Shown here: one piece after another, positions 6,580 to 58,852 of the stretch
Position numbering within the stretch: the stretch's first letter is position 1
How the letters are laid out: each line of letters begins with the position of its first letter
Source: Monodelphis domestica
Taxonomy: Eukaryota > Chordata > Mammalia > Didelphimorphia > Didelphidae
Assembly (NCBI RefSeq): GCF_027887165.1
Contig: NC_077232.1
Location: forward strand, 1,843,662-1,907,661
Length of the DNA stretch: 64,000 nucleotides
Direction of reading: 5' to 3'
The notes under the pieces: generated by a model
Seen by the model: only the letters and a program-made list of their open reading frames with translations
Told to the model about the DNA's origin: nothing
Database searches by the model: none
Made by a program: the position numbers and the translations under genes

Positions 6580-7397
6580 ATAGTTCAGTCCCTGAAGCAG
6601 TAGGCAATTTAGGAGAGAGAGTGACAGAAGCAAAAGAATGAAGCAATAGATATAAACAGAAGAAATTAGTACAACAGGAACCGACAGCATTGACTGGTCC
6701 CCAATGCCAATAGACCCCATGTCAGAAATCATGTTCTGACAGTCAAGGATACAGATTTTTTCAGTGTTCATGAACACATTAAGTAATAACCCTTTTGCAC
6801 ATAGATTTCTTCACCCCAGATTCTGTAATAAATATAGACATCTCCAGGCTATAATTCTGAGGCTAAGATTTAGGCTTAATTGTGGTAAATTAAAGCCAAG
6901 GGTCCTGTGCATTGTTATAGCTGTTCCTACAGGCCCTTGATAGAAGATACAGATCAATGATTAACAAAAACCCACTACAACAGATCTATCTGTGAATTCT
7001 TGGGGGCCTTGGGCTTGCTCTACCTGGTCTTTAGGGAAACAAGACATTCTTAAACTCCAATCGCAAAATAGATACGTGATACATTTACTTTATAGAAATA
7101 TTCATATTAAAACTCTAGTATATATGTATTTTTAGTTGATCTCCAATTAATACACCTTCTCCCCTTTTCATTGAGTCAGAAAAATTAATAATTCTTCAGG
7201 CAGTTTATCTCAAATCGTTCTTTCTCTGGTTAGTGTTGGCTTTATCTCTCAGCTGTTTACTATACCCAGAGATGAGGAGAATACTCTTAGTTGCTTTAAA
7301 TATTAGTAATAGCTTAAACTTATTAGCAGAAAAACATTCACACATTTTACCTTAATTGCTACTCAGTAACTCAAAATAGTCCAGATTTTAAAAAAGA
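6580..7397. other. Unassigned AT-rich DNA
   Basis: No open frame longer than about 67 codons and no repeat I can name. It lies between the composite LTR and the next SINE. Confidence 0.5.
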
Positions 7398-7490
7398 CTA
7401 CATGTTTTATTTTTATTTTATTTATTTATTTTTAAACCCTTACGTTCTGTCTTGGAATCAATACTGTGTATTTATTTGTTAACTTGGAAA

Positions 7491-7888
7491 TGTCAACGTG
7501 GAAATCTAGAGATCCTCAGTTTACTTAGTTTGAGTGTAGAAAGCCCAGGTTTTGCCCTTGTCTGGGAGAGGTTTCCCCCTGAGGGAAGGTCCCACTTCAC
7601 CAGACAAATGGACATCCACTTCAGCTTTGGCACAGTACGTAAAGCTTCAGTCTCTCAAGCTGAAGGTCCAGGAGTTCGATTCTCCATCCTTGGTAAGGAG
7701 GGTGTGATATACTGGGAAAGAGCTATTTGACTTCAAGATGGGATCTGCCTCCCACCTGAAGTGGACGTCCATTGTCCGGTGAAGTGGGTCCTTCCCTCAG
7801 GGGGAAACTCTCCTGTGACAAGGGCAAAACCTGGGCTTTCTACCTCCCAACTAAATAAACTGGGGATCTCTAGATTTCCACGTTGACA
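7491..7888. mobile_element. 398-bp inverted-repeat element with ERV U3-like ends and 4-bp target duplication
   Basis: The left arm (7491-7623) and right arm (7757-7888) are inverted repeats of about 132 bp, roughly 87 % identical by eye, with exact termini TGTCAACGTGGAAATC and its complement. Perfect 4-bp duplications GAAA flank it at 7487-7490 and 7889-7892. The related LTR at 9245 shows the empty site with a single GAAA. Both arms match the U3 end of that LTR family (TGTCAACATGGACATC...), and LTR homology on the right reaches further inward, to about 7700. The remaining core of about 77 bp looks tRNA-derived. No coding capacity. It could be a foldback element, a miniature element moved by an ERV integrase, or a rearranged LTR dimer. 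The perfect target duplication argues for one insertion event. Confidence 0.8.
7621..7694 (+). other. tRNA-like core of the inverted-repeat element (CTC anticodon)
   Basis: The A-box-like TGGCACAGTACG (7628-7639) and B-box-like AGTTCGATTCT (7673-7683) are spaced as in a tRNA gene. Between them TCAGT / CTCTCAA / GCTGA (7647-7663) folds into a 5-bp anticodon stem with a 7-base loop, T before and A after the CTC triplet, as in tRNA-Glu. The T-arm pairs at 4 of 5 positions. The acceptor stem pairs at only about 4 positions, including wobble pairs, so this is not a functional tRNA. It may instead be the head of a tRNA-derived SINE. Confidence 0.4.
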
Positions 7889-9244
7889 GAAATAACACAG
7901 AACTATCAAATAGTCAGAAAAACCAAGTCTTTAATCAGGAGAGGGATAAGTGCAGTATCGAATTCTTTACTCAGAGTCTGGCACCACAACTTTTTCAGGG
8001 TATAACCCTGGACTTTGGAGATGTTACCCCTGGGAGAGCCACCTCCTTCGATGAAGACTCTGAGGAGCCATTAAAGTTGGGGAGTTTAAATACCTTTCTA
8101 GGTGGAATCTGGGGGCTGAGGATGAGAGGGACAATTGATTGACTTTACAAGGGTAAGAAAGGGAAAGGAGGAGTTCCAGGCAGGAATACCAGAGAGGGAC
8201 TGATACTTACAATGGACACAAAAGGGAAAGATCCAGCCAAGGGCATGGCCAGCTTGGTAAAGGACTTTGGTCTAAAGGGAGAAATCCCTGGGACAAAAGA
8301 GATACTTAACATCTTAAAGTCTATTGTTAGTCTGAGGGGCAGCCAAGTAGGACTTTCCCTGGTGAGGAACTCCGTTGTGACCAGGTGAAACCAGGAGCCT
8401 TTACCCTTAAGCTAAGTAAATTGGGGTTCATTTAGTCTTTCTAGGCTACAAGTTTGGGGGCTTCTAGATTCCATGTTGACAGGTTCCAAGGCAGAAGAGT
8501 GGTAAGGGCTAGGCAACGGGGGTTAAGTGACTTGCCCAGGGTCACACACCTGGGAAGTGTCTGAGGCCAAATTTGAACCCAGGACCTCCTGTCTCTAGGC
8601 TTGGCTCTCCATCCGCTGAGCCACCCAGCTGCCCCCTACATGTTTTAAACACTTAGCACATTACTTTGTCCAATTCATGTGAGACATTAATTGTGTCCAT
8701 ATTACAAAATGGCAAACTGAGATAACTTCTTATGATTAAACAAAATCCAGGATGCATTCAGGTTGCCTTAGTCACACATTTACACTAGCCGTCATATTCA
8801 TTCAAGTTTCAATGATAAAGGCATGCTTCATGCGACTAAAGAAGAGCTTATTTGCATAGATAGTACAAAATACTTCCCACTCCCGGTCAGGCTTTTCCTA
8901 ACAGGTGTAGACAGGTCAAGTGTATTGAAAGCGTGATAGCAAGTCAGGCTTCCAGAAATTTTCAATAGTTTAAGTGACTCCATAACACTGCCCGGGATAG
9001 TGGATCAGACGCGACACAGTTGGGTATCTGCTGATCCCCCCAATTCACCGAAATCTACGTTTTAACCAAGGAATGGCTACACTTCGGGAGAAGCAACAAG
9101 GGGTTGCTGAGTCCTTGAGGACACAAAAGCCGAAGTCCTCAGCCGAAGCCTTTCCTGATGGCTGGAAGGGGTCGAGGCTTTCTTTTTCATTTTCGCAAGA
9201 CCCTAGAATACCACACTCTGCGGGCAGAAGCCGAGAGATCTTAC

Positions 9245-9821
9245 TGTCAACTAGAAAAAACACAGAACTGTTAAATAGTCAAAATCACTCTTTAATCCAG
9301 GGAAAAGGGGTTCGCGTTACTAATGCGACCACAGAGCTGCTTTCCAAGACTGCACAGAGTCAAGCCGCCCTGGTCACCAGCCCCTGGGAGTGCCACCGAC
9401 TCAGGATGGACTCCGAGGAACAAAAGAACTTGGGGAACCTATATACCACTCTAGGTGACCTGGGGGCTTTAGGATTAGAGGGACAGTTGATTGACTTTAC
9501 AATGGTAAGAAAGGAAAATGAGGAGCTCCAGACAGGAATAATAGTGAGGGGCTGATACCCTACAATGGACACAAAAGGGAAAGACTTAGCCTAGGGCTGG
9601 GTCACCTTGGTCATGGACCTTAGCCTAGGGGGAGAAACATTCGAACAAAAGGGATGTTTAATATTGGATGGGATTCGCTGTTCCCACCCAAACTACCAGG
9701 AAGTTCGCTGTCTGAAGAGGGACCTTCCCTCAGGGGGAACCTCTCCTGTGACAAGGTCCAAACCTGGGGTTTCTACACTCCAACTAAATAAACTGGGGAG
9801 CTCTAGATGTCCATGTTGACA
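9245..9821 (-). mobile_element. Solo ERV LTR, 577 bp
   Basis: Termini TGTCAACTAG and CATGTTGACA, with perfect 4-bp duplications TTAC at 9241-9244 and 9822-9825. On the minus strand a TATATAGG box (complement of 9438-9445) precedes an ATTAAA signal (complement of 9291-9296), giving the orientation. It belongs to the family of the LTR at 7477-8481 and supplies the empty-site comparison for the element at 7491-7888. The 160-codon plus-strand frame through it is not a gene. Confidence 0.88.
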
Positions 9822-30480: not shown

Positions 30481-31414
30481 CTGATTCTCTCCTTTTCTTT
30501 CCTTTTTTTCATCTCCTTTCATTTCCTTTCTTTTCTTTTCCTAACTTTCCTCCCTCCTTCCTTCCTTTCTACCTACCTACCTATAGAATAAAGACTTCTT
30601 TGCCACTGAGTCATAGAAAATATAAAAATCCTAAAAAATTGTGTGTGGGTAGGCTGATTATGGAGGATACCTAATAGCAATAATGAGTGGTAAAGTGTAA
30701 TAAGAAATAATAGGTAATAGTGATATATAAAGAACATGTTGCCTCTATTGTAGCAAGAAATTGTGTCGGGTTATATATGCAGTGGCCTCTTCTATTTTTC
30801 CCCTGTAGCACAAGTGAGTCTAATCTTTGGACTAATAGTTCTCACCATTTAATATAATGATTGACAACTAATATAAGGAGGCATGGGTTTGATGATGGCA
30901 CTACTGGCTTGGTCTTTAATTTACCAAGGACTCTCTTTCACGTGTCTCTCCATCATTCTCCTATAGACTAAATCTAGAGGAGGAAGTTGAGCTATGAGGC
31001 AATGGTCAGTGGCGTTCTCTGAGTTCCATTTTGGGTGGAAATTTGGCACTGATGGTTCCATCAAAAGTTTCATACTTGCAACTTTCAGATATATTAATTA
31101 AGAATAGATGCCATATCTCAGTATCACATTCCCCCCCAAACTGACTTCAAACGGAACCAGCTTTCAGTCTTCTTGATGAATTCCTTTTCTTAGTGCCATC
31201 TTTATGTCTGTCCTCTGAAGTGTTTGAGTCCAAATGTGGTAGCCCTGCTGCCTCTGATGGTAGAGTTTGTTACAAAAGTTTTTAACAGATCTTTTGTGAA
31301 CATGAGAGAATAGAATGTAGGTCTGGGAGTCAAGAAGACCCAGACTTAAAAATTTCTTCTTACTCTAGCAAGATGGCTTCATCAGGAAAAGAGTTCGAAA
31401 TATGGGAGGTAGGG

Positions 31415-32374
<960 letters not shown>

Positions 32375-33174
32375 TGATAGTGTTTTCTAGCCTAAATTGT
32401 TACCAGACGGGTACGCTGTACATGCTCCATTTGAAAACTTTACAAAATGCTACTCAAACTTTCTTGTTAGTAACATTTATTCTGTGTTGAAAAATGTTTA
32501 CCAACTTTTTACAAAATGCTCGTCAGAAATCCAGTTTATGCAGGGACATATGACCGAGTCATTCGGTGGTCCTTCTTTGGTCCTGGTGGCTTCTCCTTTG
32601 GTCCCTTCCCCTGGGTTCAAGAATTGTCCTTTCCAATCCAGACGACTATGCCTATTGTGTTGCTCCTATACTCTTCTTCCCATCGGGGTCTGGTAGAATC
32701 ATGCAAAAGAATGTAGAGGATGTACAATGCCTTCTTTCACAAGATGATGAAAAAGGAAATATACATTGCTGGAGAGTCCATGCGTAGCCTAGATCAGTTT
32801 ACTTGCCATCTTTGAGGGGGGAAGAGGGAGGGAAGGAGTGAATTTGAATAGTAAATTGGTAGAAAACATGTTAAAATTTGTATCTACATATAAATGGGAA
32901 AATGACAGTAAAATATTAATGGGAATAAAAGAAGAATATACAGGAAATACTTGGAGCACGAGAACTTTCTTGATCATCTCTAAGTGCAGCTAAACCTCTA
33001 CTCAATAGACTTGCTGCACATGCAGAGATCACAAGCAACTGTCCGGTAGCATATACCATTAATTGACAGAAACCTCTGATTTCTTACCTATTCCATTGAT
33101 GCCTTCTTTTCCCCCAAAGCCAGATGAGATAATACTAGCAAACTATGTAGTAAATTGCTTGGCTCAAATGGCTG

Positions 33175-34853: not shown

Positions 34854-35789
34854 TCAGCCTCGAGCGGAGGCTTCCGTGGTGTTGGTGTGAAGGCTGTCCC
34901 TCCCCCCACTTTCGGGCTCCTGCGGGCCCCCCAGGGCCCTCTGGAGGACCACCCTGAGCGGCTCCCTCCCCCTTCTCCGCCTTCGGCTGCCCAGGAAGAA
35001 GTAAATGAACGGGTTGGCGCTGCTGTTCACACAGGCCAGGAGCAGGGAGGCCAAGTGATGCCTCGGCTCCAAGCCCGAGAACACGTAGAGGAAGTCGACG
35101 ATCCCCGCAGGCACGCCGCACAGCAGGAACACGAGGACGGTGAGCACCACCAGGAGGTAGAAGCGGGGCGGCTGCCGGCGCCGCGAGCCGCACTGGACCC
35201 GGAGCACCAGCGCCAGGCTGGAAGCGCACAGCAGCGGGGTGAGCAGGAGGAACCACACGAACAGGGCAATGGGGAAGGCAAGGCAGAAGGGCGCGTCGCA
35301 CGTGTAAATACAAAGGCCGCAGTAGATCCCGCAGCAGAGCCCCGCCAGAGCCCAGAGCAGCGCGCACACGGCCGCCGACGTGTGCTTGGGCCGGTGGCAG
35401 CGGTACCAGAGCGGGAAGAGCGCCGACAGACAGCGCTCGGTGCTGATGGCCACCAGCAGGCTCAGGCCCACGTGGTAGAAGAGGAACGTGAACGTGATCA
35501 TCACGTGATCCGTGACGACGTCGTTAAAGGAGCCAATGAATTGCTTCAAGTAGAAGGCGAAGAGGCCGCAGAGGAAGAGGGCGTCGGCCGCGGCCAGGTT
35601 GAGGATGTAGACGGAGAAGGGGCTCCTCGGGATGCGGAAGCCCAGCAGCCACAGGACCAGGCCGTTCCCCAGCAGCCCAACCACCGCGATGCCCATCGTG
35701 AGGATCTGCTTCCAGTCGCCGAATCCATCCCCTCCAGGACCTCCGCAAGGGAAACTCCCGTTTGTCCTCTCCGCTGTGCCGTCAGCCAT
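34854..35789 (-). CDS. Mas-related G-protein-coupled receptor (311 aa)
   Basis: A seven-transmembrane receptor of the MRGPR family, plasma-membrane receptors that in mammals act mainly in sensory neurons and mast cells. Seen: N-glycosylation site N10-G-S; TM1 with GN (N42); TM2 LNLAAAD (D69); TM3 ending STERC (116-120), the family's form of DRY; LFPLWYRCHRPKH in the second intracellular loop; TM6 CGVP (224-227) with Gly in place of the usual toggle Trp; TM7 NSSANPFIY (255-263) with intact NPxxY; and a basic RRRRRGRE stretch starting helix 8. C157 and C169 have the spacing of the MRGPR TM4-TM5 disulfide. The start at 35789 is chosen for its GCCATGG context and the splice acceptor just upstream; the open frame runs 57 codons further but crosses that acceptor. 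Length fits the family. The subfamily is not resolved. Confidence 0.94.
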   Translation of the reverse strand: MADGTAERTNGSFPCGGPGGDGFGDWKQILTMGIAVVGLLGNGLVLWLLGFRIPRSPFSVYILNLAAADALFLCGLFAFYLKQFIGSFNDVVTDHVMITFTFLFYHVGLSLLVAISTERCLSALFPLWYRCHRPKHTSAAVCALLWALAGLCCGIYCGLCIYTCDAPFCLAFPIALFVWFLLLTPLLCASSLALVLRVQCGSRRRQPPRFYLLVVLTVLVFLLCGVPAGIVDFLYVFSGLEPRHHLASLLLACVNSSANPFIYFFLGSRRRRRGREPLRVVLQRALGGPQEPESGGRDSLHTNTTEASARG

Positions 35790-35823
35790 GGCGCCAGGCC
35801 CGAAGCCACGCCTCTCAGACGCC

Positions 35824-35845
35824 CTGAGGACAAGGAAGCACATCA
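35824..35845 (-). promoter_or_regulatory. Splice acceptor 5' of the first MRGPR coding exon
   Basis: On the minus strand, CTTCCTTGTCCTCAG is followed by GGCGTCTGAG, 34 bases before the ATG. The second MRGPR gene has the matching CGTGTCCCCAG / GGTGTCTGAG. MRGPR genes commonly have noncoding 5' exons and one coding exon, so this fixes the exon border and rules out the longer in-frame start. Confidence 0.7.
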
Positions 35846-35954
35846 GGGATTTTCCCACAGCTTTGCTCCAGGCTCTGACATCAGTGTTAAGCCTCCTATT
35901 CACCACTTCCTCCTTCTTGGAGGCAACTAGTTGACTCCCAGAGCCAGAAAAGCA

Positions 35955-36090
35955 TTCCATAAGCCTCAGACACGCTCTGGCTTTGTGACCTTGGGCAAGT
36001 CATATAACATGTATGCCTAAATTTCCACAACTGTAAAATGAGGCTAATAACAGCATCTACCTCACAGGAGGAACAAATGGTAAAGCAGTA
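35955..36090 (+). repeat. MIR-like SINE
   Basis: TTTGTGACCTTGGGCAAGTC and ACTGTAAAATGAGG. A diverged partner lies upstream of the second gene near 59015-59090. Confidence 0.6.
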
Positions 36091-57829: not shown

Positions 57830-58807
57830 TCAGGAGGAAGTCTCCAGGGTGTTGGTGTGGGAGGTGTCCCCCCCCTCCGATCCCAGCTCTTGCTCGTCGC
57901 TCAGGGCCCTCCGGAGGACCGCCCTGAGGGTCTCCCTCCCTCTCCTCCGCCTTTGCCTGCCCAGGGAGAAGTAAACGAAAGGGTTCGCGCTGCTGTTCAC
58001 GCAGCCCAGGAACGAAGGGAGCCAGGCCGGCATAAATTCGAGGTCCAGCCTGCGGACGAAGATTTCGAACCCGGGGCCCACGCCGCACAGCAGGAACTCG
58101 AGGGCCGTGAGCAGCGTCAGGTGGTAGAGGCGGGGCGGCTGCCGGCGCAGGGAGCTGCACTGGACGCGGAGCACCAGCGTCAGGCTGGTCACGGCCAGCA
58201 GGCCGATGAAGAAGAAGAACCAGATGGAGTGCAGAATGACGAAGTTGAGGCAGATGGCGCCTTTGCGCGCGTGAAAACAGAGCAGGAAAAACAGACCCCA
58301 GCAGAGGCCGGCCAGAACCCACAGGACGGCGCACACCGCGGCCGACGTGTGCTTGGGCCGGTGCCGGCGGTACCAGGTGGGGAAGAGCGCGAACAGACAG
58401 CGCTGGGTGCTGATGGCCGCCCGCAGGCTCAGGCCCATGAAGTAAGACATGAACGTGACGCAGATCCCGGCCTCGGGCAGGTCGGAGAGGAGGTTAATGG
58501 ACCTCAAGAACTTCTGTATGAAGAGCTCCACTAGGCCGCCGAGGTAGAGGGCGTCGGCCACGGCCAGGTTGAGGATGTAGACGGAGAAGGGGTTCCTGGG
58601 GACGCGGAAGCTCAGCAGCCACAGGACGATGGTGTTCCCCACCAGCCCCAGCAGGGTGATGAGCATAGAGAAGATCTCCATCCAGTCGTCCACGTCAAAG
58701 TCTCCGTGTACCCTCCGCCCGGGATTGACAGTCCCATTTGGGTTCCTTTGCGTGCTGTTGTCCGGACTGGATCCCAGCCGCCCAGATGGGGGGGACGACA
58801 CAGCCAT
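57830..58807 (-). CDS. Mas-related G-protein-coupled receptor, divergent (325 aa)
   Basis: A second MRGPR-family receptor, paralogous to the 311-aa one and in the same orientation. Seen: N-glycosylation sites N17-S-T and N24-G-T; TM1 GN (N58); TM2 LNLAVAD (D85); TM3 ending STQRC (133-137); ALFPTWYRRHRPKH in the second intracellular loop; TM6 CGVGP (241-245); TM7 NSSANPFVY (271-279) with intact NPxxY; and a basic RRRRGRE stretch starting helix 8. The start at 58807 has the same GCCATGG context and upstream acceptor as its paralogue. Odd: Gln135 replaces the acidic residue at 3.49, Arg129 replaces Leu at 3.43, the TM6 proline is shifted by one, and the TM4 cysteine is missing (F174). The frame is intact over its full length, so I call a gene, not a pseudogene. 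Confidence 0.92.
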   Translation of the reverse strand: MAVSSPPSGRLGSSPDNSTQRNPNGTVNPGRRVHGDFDVDDWMEIFSMLITLLGLVGNTIVLWLLSFRVPRNPFSVYILNLAVADALYLGGLVELFIQKFLRSINLLSDLPEAGICVTFMSYFMGLSLRAAISTQRCLFALFPTWYRRHRPKHTSAAVCAVLWVLAGLCWGLFFLLCFHARKGAICLNFVILHSIWFFFFIGLLAVTSLTLVLRVQCSSLRRQPPRLYHLTLLTALEFLLCGVGPGFEIFVRRLDLEFMPAWLPSFLGCVNSSANPFVYFSLGRQRRRRGRETLRAVLRRALSDEQELGSEGGDTSHTNTLETSS

Positions 58808-58852
58808 GGCGCTTGGTTCCAGCCCCAGAAAACCCTGCTCGTCTCAGACACC

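Follow-up and report, generated by a model that had tools for sequence, protein, structure and literature searches.

A palindromic element of the opossum genome with two outward retroviral U3 ends and a tRNA-like core

Introduction

The DNA analyzed here, hereafter called the window, is a 64,000-nucleotide stretch of the Monodelphis domestica genome, and it contains a 398-bp palindromic element that sits inside a long terminal repeat (LTR) of an endogenous retrovirus (ERV) and ends on both sides in what looks like ERV U3 sequence. The question raised by this locus is whether such a unit is an accident of local rearrangement, the LTR of a small retrovirus-like element, a DNA transposon, or something else that multiplies in its own right. 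The evidence presented below moderately favors the last of these, namely a non-autonomous, integrase-dependent retroelement with a new layout, in which two outward copies of the ERV U3 (its first ~115-134 bp) would surround a private core that includes a tRNA-derived domain.

Structure and insertion site of the element

Alignment of the two inverted arms of the element returned 89.6% identity over 135 columns (E 9e-45), and a second comparison of the same arms gave 117 nt at 87%. The termini read TGTCAAC...GTTGACA, with GAAA on either side. When the insert is taken out, the flanks form continuous LTR sequence, and a sister solo LTR in the same window holds a single GAAA at the matching place. 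These results confirm two statements of the original prediction, i.e., that the palindrome has outward ERV U3 ends within a GAAA duplication, and that the sister LTR at 9245 represents the empty site. The prediction had also assigned the arms to the LTR family surrounding the element; the match to U3 was upheld, but it is closer for the sister LTR (9245-9821) than for the host LTR in which the arms lie. It is to be noted that the right U3-like part may run beyond the palindrome. The tRNA-like core, the existence of two generations and the matching of the arms formed no part of the prediction, and all three emerged in the follow-up analysis.

Copies and target-site duplications

A search of the host genome (3.586 Gb, 13 contigs) with the element yielded 2600 first-look candidates. 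Scores were obtained for 40 of these places, and every one was indeed a full or nearly full copy; one was the window itself, one was 91% identical, and the other 38 were 82-85% identical. These are referred to as the young copies, and they were read with ~4.7 kb of flank per side (20 copies) or with 60 bp (19 copies), in addition to the window's own. Their lengths, 382-415 bp (n=40), leave no room for enzymes. The 4-bp target duplication was perfect in 24 of the 40, matched at three of four positions in nine, at two in four, and at none in three, while a control with mispaired flanks produced perfect matches in just 8 of 1560 pairings. Among the 24 perfect duplications, 22 were different. The element is therefore multi-copy, alone in the loci examined, and flanked by 4-bp duplications. 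The many copies with private duplications to which the original prediction had looked for support thus exist, and the contrary case that it had named, a unique locus, is excluded. Its reading of the ends as two outward U3 termini also extends beyond the window, since U3-type ends were seen in all aligned copies printed (21 young, and 12 of an older generation described below), with a degraded left tip in one young copy (L017).

These numbers also decide on local rearrangement, in which part of a solo LTR lying in another LTR would have given way to U3 sequence in inverted orientation plus a fragment of a tRNA or of a SINE (short interspersed element). A 7-bp terminus is common to the U3 and U5 ends, and a switch at this point could preserve the duplication; nonetheless, a single-copy rearrangement is refuted by the presence of this layout in 40 copies whose sites are unrelated, and its probability is practically nil.

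To estimate abundance, an exact 27-base pattern at the junction of arm and core was used, which occurred 136 times in the genome against zero for its reversed control. Since the pattern is carried by 11 of the 40 young copies, these counts suggest about 500 young copies genome-wide, a rough figure considering that the 40 were chosen by their likeness to the window. An additional sample of 20 copies was drawn from the 136 places (100 of them listed), comprising one close pair and 18 copies picked along the list. A loose filter on termini was passed by 16 of the 20, in which the duplication scored 4/4 in three, 3/4 in seven, 1/4 in five, and 0/4 in one. Ten of the 20 were kept by eye for recognizable termini, and all ten had duplications at 3/4 or 4/4; L103, which likewise stayed within one mismatch per end, was excluded from this set owing to mismatched bases after its termini. 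Exact-pattern scans of viral and genome contig collections returned no match, as expected for a vertebrate repeat.

Several individual loci deserve mention. Two copies (L095 and L111; 351 and 332 bp) are shorter than the usual ~405 bp and lack parts, with intact termini and duplications of 4/4 and 3/4, respectively. In a nest at one locus (L025, 4600-6950), 2.4 kb contain several copies: one young palindrome interrupts an LTR, another young one has an AGGG/AGGG duplication, a further copy (6764-6942) is short, has lost internal sequence and is bordered by ACCT at either end, and the last is a broken old copy. In L009, L015 and L051 (both flanks), in L065 and L107 (one flank), and at the host LTR (7477-8481), the insertion has occurred in one and the same SINE and at nearly the same position in it, the surrounding sequence being tgtattggttc / ccaaggcagaag. 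Since several palindromes and the window's host LTR share this point, it suggests a preferred insertion site.

Outer arms and the ERV U3

The sister LTR represents a real family, as all 40 scored genome places were 94-100% identical to it. Among sister-family LTRs read with their flanks, the 4-bp duplication was present as printed in 8 of 12; the window's copy L029, as well as L030 and L031, have one too if one surplus base at the beginning of the printed sequence is assigned to the flank. A pair among the 40 places lies 4.6 kb apart in the same orientation; one member (L038) has no 4-bp duplication, and the bases beyond its U5 end read TTAA TGGAGGTCCC, a stretch that we take to resemble a tRNA-Thr primer site. 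In another locus (L033, 541-1090), a second LTR subfamily with a TCTT/TCTT duplication lies just upstream of a sister LTR, and its U3 carries the commonest palindrome haplotype.

The arms were compared with 32 LTRs, i.e., 12 sister LTRs and 20 of a neighboring group. Over U3 positions 1-110, the young right arms resembled the LTRs about as much as they resembled each other. Identity to the ERV U3 was 0.88-0.97 per 10-bp window over positions 1-100, apart from a dip to 0.74-0.76 at 41-50, where the palindromes differ among themselves at the same level. It then fell to 0.49-0.64 at 121-130 (0.68 when aligned with the sisters alone) and to 0.10-0.60 past 130, except for 0.70-0.80 at 171-180. Arm haplotypes found in the LTRs as well include TTGAGTG, TTGAGGG, and TTTAAAGG with a linked change.

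An older generation

A second search was conducted with an element found beside one of the young copies (L022), and 40 places were scored (itself, and 39 at 75-84%), of which 21 had an opposite-strand arm match of at least 66 bases beside the first. Twelve old copies were read over their entire length, the choice being limited to places whose second arm is long. They measured 463-489 bp (n=12), and their duplications scored 4/4 in six, 3/4 in two, 2/4 in two, 1/4 in one, and 0/4 in one. Old and young palindromes have a common core, and the old arms are like the U3 of an older LTR type, the same as that of the window's host LTR and of the LTR in L019. A U3 gap of ~32 bases is common to the young LTR and to both young arms, and is not seen in old palindromes or old-type LTRs. 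Thus, there are two generations, with arms that resemble the U3 of the old and the young LTR group, respectively. One old copy (L069) appears by eye to be a mosaic, its left arm switching from young-like to old-like sequence. The element at L022 7360 was for a time read as an LTR with a tRNA-like piece within its U3, so that every palindrome would have had to arise anew by fold-back of an LTR of this kind; this reading was dropped, as the sequence is an old palindrome without its second arm.

The two generations bear directly on a DNA transposon with terminal inverted repeats (TIRs), or a miniature inverted-repeat transposable element, as the source of the palindrome. According to the description of Ginger transposons (PMC2836005), long TIRs, TGTNR termini and 4-bp duplications are traits of these transposons as they are of our element, and the Ginger transposase is integrase-like, being related to the integrase of Gypsy. 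However, the outer arms here consist of ERV U3 sequence, and their change from one generation to the other parallels that of the LTRs; LTRs with the same ends also have 4-bp duplications. Moreover, the same source reports a transposase of Ginger's own and target specificity, i.e., CCGG/CCGT for Ginger1 and preferred RTATAY for Ginger2, as opposed to the variety of duplications found here. A transposon of this type is therefore a strained explanation, and a very improbable one.

Likeness of the two arms within a copy

The two arms of a copy were more alike than arms of different copies. In the young copies (n=40), arms of the same copy differed by 5.05% (0.0505), compared to 7.9% between copies, and the corresponding values in the old copies (n=12) were 0.1075 and 0.1928; none of 20000 permutations equaled the result in either generation. 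By position, the equality of the young arms peaked at U3 36-55 (z -8.6), was strong at 16-35 and 76-95 (z -7.5), was present to position 115, and was weak at 116-134 (z -1.8). It thus extends over the outer ~115 bp, which is about where the homology to ERV U3 stops. The ten additional copies picked by eye behaved in the same manner, with 0/20000 permutations for the outer part and no effect in the inner part (z 0.4), and the arms of the loose set of 16 were also alike overall (4/20000). Arms of the same copy thus match on average, and they do so mainly in their outer, ERV-like portion.

Inverted repeats are known to convert each other, and the likeness could in principle result from gene conversion between the arms after insertion rather than from one template at birth. 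The distribution of variants was informative in this regard. Variants found in several young copies occupied both arms 97 times, compared with 30.3 expected from independent arms, and a single arm 192 times. Of the private variants in the 40 young copies, 78 sat in one arm and only three occurred in both. Since private variants are confined to one arm and common ones are in both, the likeness must predate or date to the insertion, and the arms of young copies already matched at birth. The 12 old copies are more favorable to conversion, with private variants in both arms 24 times and in one arm 104 times, although 'private' among a mere 12 copies takes in subfamily variants. Overall, conversion is an improbable source of the likeness.

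The tRNA-like core

The core of the window's element matched the Rfam tRNA model at 20.9 bits (7628-7686; cmscan), under the cut-off of 29, and neither ARAGORN nor Rfam at its cut-off gave a match in the window. Among the copies sampled for this test (19 of the 40 young copies, and the 12 old), the cut-off was exceeded by 7 of the 19 young copies other than the window's (best, 37.3 bits) and by one of the 12 old (32.8 bits), with weaker matches in five more young and four more old copies. Most of the matches span model positions 5-66, the outer acceptor stem being absent. The core folds no better than shuffled sequence (z -0.18). The distance from the stretch shared by the arms to the A-box-like stretch was three bases in 28 of the 40 young copies and zero in 7 of the 12 old, which decides nothing.

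We take elongator tRNA-Met to be the nearest relative of the core. Its origin from a primer tRNA was considered and is unsupported, as the primer-site-like stretch of L038 presumably corresponds to tRNA-Thr. Another Rfam model, MIR869, which is a plant microRNA hairpin, scored 68 bits (cut-off, 330) on an old palindrome (L066, 127-415); this is a chance hairpin likeness and a caution for annotation pipelines.

Solo LTRs of a small retroelement as an alternative

The main rival explanation is that the palindrome is itself the LTR of a small, non-autonomous ERV, comparable to a terminal-repeat retrotransposon in miniature (TRIM) or to Cassandra, and that nearly all copies are solo LTRs produced by recombination. 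The exact ends would then come from an ordinary primer-binding site (PBS) and polypurine tract (PPT), the arms would be equalized by strand jumping within the palindrome, and the outer parts would recombine with co-packaged ERV RNA. The TG...CA ends and 4-bp duplications suit solo LTRs; the plus strand of the element contains, by eye, an AATAAA near its right end and a TATA-like GATATAC; and plant Cassandra elements are described as having an RNA polymerase III (Pol III) promoter of 5S type in their LTR (PMC10853983). No two-LTR form with PBS and PPT was seen in the 20 copies read with ~4.7 kb flanks. Only one of these 20 (L025) had a second young copy in the same orientation, with a duplication of its own as described above, and the neighbor in L022 is an old-generation fragment. 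There was no pair within 10 kb among the 40 scored places, and the 100 listed of the 136 pattern occurrences contained a single same-orientation pair under 10 kb apart (L092 and L093), the members of which are 86% identical and have a separate 3/4 near-duplication each. The sample speaks against solo LTRs, an explanation that we consider unlikely but deserving of serious attention.

A proposed mode of replication

It is established retroviral biology that plus-strand priming at the ERV PPT gives exact U3 ends. For the palindrome, we envisage that its RNA would be carried in ERV particles, where a DNA strand begun at the ERV plus-strand primer would acquire the exact U3 end and copy ~100 bp of ERV U3. 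Within the first ~115 bases, this strand would switch by homology to the antisense-U3 RNA of the element and then copy the core, after which it would reach a U3 strand, often its own and otherwise a sister, by folding back or by switching, and copy this out to the exact end. Such a course would yield a linear U3-U3 duplex, its outer arms equal, as the molecule inserted by the ERV integrase; the tRNA-like domain may provide a putative Pol III promoter. This scheme is preferred as the simplest one to account at once for the exact ends, for arms that are equal in their outer but less so in their inner part, and for the way in which the arms follow the ERV. Insertion of U3-U3 molecules by an ERV integrase is itself inferred from the termini, the length of the duplication, and the U3 homology. 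An alternative route, in which a half-length Pol III RNA is copied and the cDNA folds back at the junction of arm and core, is less favored, since under it the inner arms should be equal and in the young copies they are not. The old copies and the loose set of 16 would fit a half-length and a full-length RNA model alike.

A number of observations weigh against the proposed retroelement or parts of its replication. The equality of old arms fades inward and yet persists (z -2.7 at 151-190), and in the loose set of 16 the inner effect (z -2.8, 56/20000) exceeded the outer (z -2.0, 924/20000). In a minority of copies, including that of the window, L012, L018, L043 and L050, the arms are unlike, as though the copy had been assembled from two different U3 strands. 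With regard to renewal, the mean likeness of an arm was 0.969 to the arms of other palindromes and 0.950 to the 32 LTRs, an LTR being at least as near as any palindrome arm for 18 of 80 arms, and none of these LTRs was seen to carry TGGGAGG, a haplotype that is frequent among palindromes. A weak tree of 116 bp had 19 changes of label between palindrome and LTR, whereas 500 shuffles gave a mean of 28 and never fewer than 20, and the two are therefore partly separate. Renewal of the arms from the ERV is thus likely, but perhaps not in every round. The tRNA-like part varies more than the arms, and constraint therefore gives no support for a working promoter. Finally, the RNA route, with each of the steps leading from it to insertion, is inferred.

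Comparison with known elements and significance

Like ERV and sister-family LTRs, the element has TG...CA ends, a 4-bp duplication, and U3 sequence in its outer arms; however, LTRs have one U3 and one U5 end as well as R, TATA and poly(A) regions, whereas the element has two U3 ends, no U5, and a different core. With TRIMs and Cassandra, it has in common a short, gene-free structure, presumed use of borrowed enzymes, and a promoter-like domain derived from an RNA gene. In contrast, TRIMs have two direct LTRs with a PBS and PPT between them, none of these being seen in the copies examined, while the ends of the element are inverted copies of one U3. Its use of ERV enzymes would follow from its ends and duplications. 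It resembles tRNA-derived SINEs in its tRNA-derived domain with A-box-like and B-box-like sequence, and differs from them in its exact termini on both sides, its 4-bp duplications, and its retroviral U3 arms; SINEs have target duplications of variable length and an A-rich or repeat 3' tail. Retroelements of the DIRS type likewise have inverted terminal repeats; however, they rely on a tyrosine recombinase and are not known to produce target duplications.

We propose, tentatively and as somewhat less likely than not, that the palindrome, with retroviral U3 sequence at each end and a long life through at least two generations, represents a class of retroelement that has not been described before. 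The tRNA-like core would carry the lineage, and the equal tips would be re-made from the U3 of the active ERV by template switching and fold-back, the ERV integrase inserting the U3-U3 molecule without LTRs, PBS or PPT of the element's own. No description of such an element came up in searches of the open-licence PMC literature; Repbase and Dfam lay outside this scope and may name it. The finding suggests genome-scale insertion, by an ERV integrase, of molecules that have U3 at either end, and points to a way in which a non-coding parasite can track its host virus, namely by adopting the newest viral end sequence at both tips. If the mechanism is true, retroviral template switching would have given rise to a lineage that perpetuates itself without genes, and sequences annotated as 'LTR' in repeat libraries of marsupials may merit re-examination.

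Coordinates and other features of the window

Table 1. Positions of the palindromic element, its parts, and the associated LTRs in the window.
Feature	Position	Strand	Remarks
Whole palindromic U3-core-U3 element	7491..7888	+ (tRNA-like core read on +)	398 bp; self-alignment and genome copies
Left arm, ERV U3 positions 1-134	7491..7624	U3 sense on +	outer ~115 bp common to ERV U3
Right arm, ERV U3 positions 1-133	7756..7888	U3 sense on -	alignment
Putative tRNA-derived core	7625..7688	+	A-box-like 7628-7639, B-box-like 7672-7682
Core continuation	7689..7755	-	in both generations; past ~120 bp little ERV U3 likeness
Left target-site duplication GAAA	7487..7490
Right target-site duplication GAAA	7889..7892
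Host LTR, older subfamily	7477..8481	-	element sits 14 bases inside its U5 end
Sister solo LTR, TTAC/TTAC duplication	9245..9821	-	empty-site reference; relative of arm donor

Elsewhere in the window, two long open frames on the minus strand (34854-35999 and 57830-58843) matched Pfam 7tm_1 at 1.1e-14 and 3.8e-08, respectively; they are probably related receptor genes, which by eye we take to be Mas-related. A simple repeat of ~1 kb at 31360-32399 keeps several frames open.
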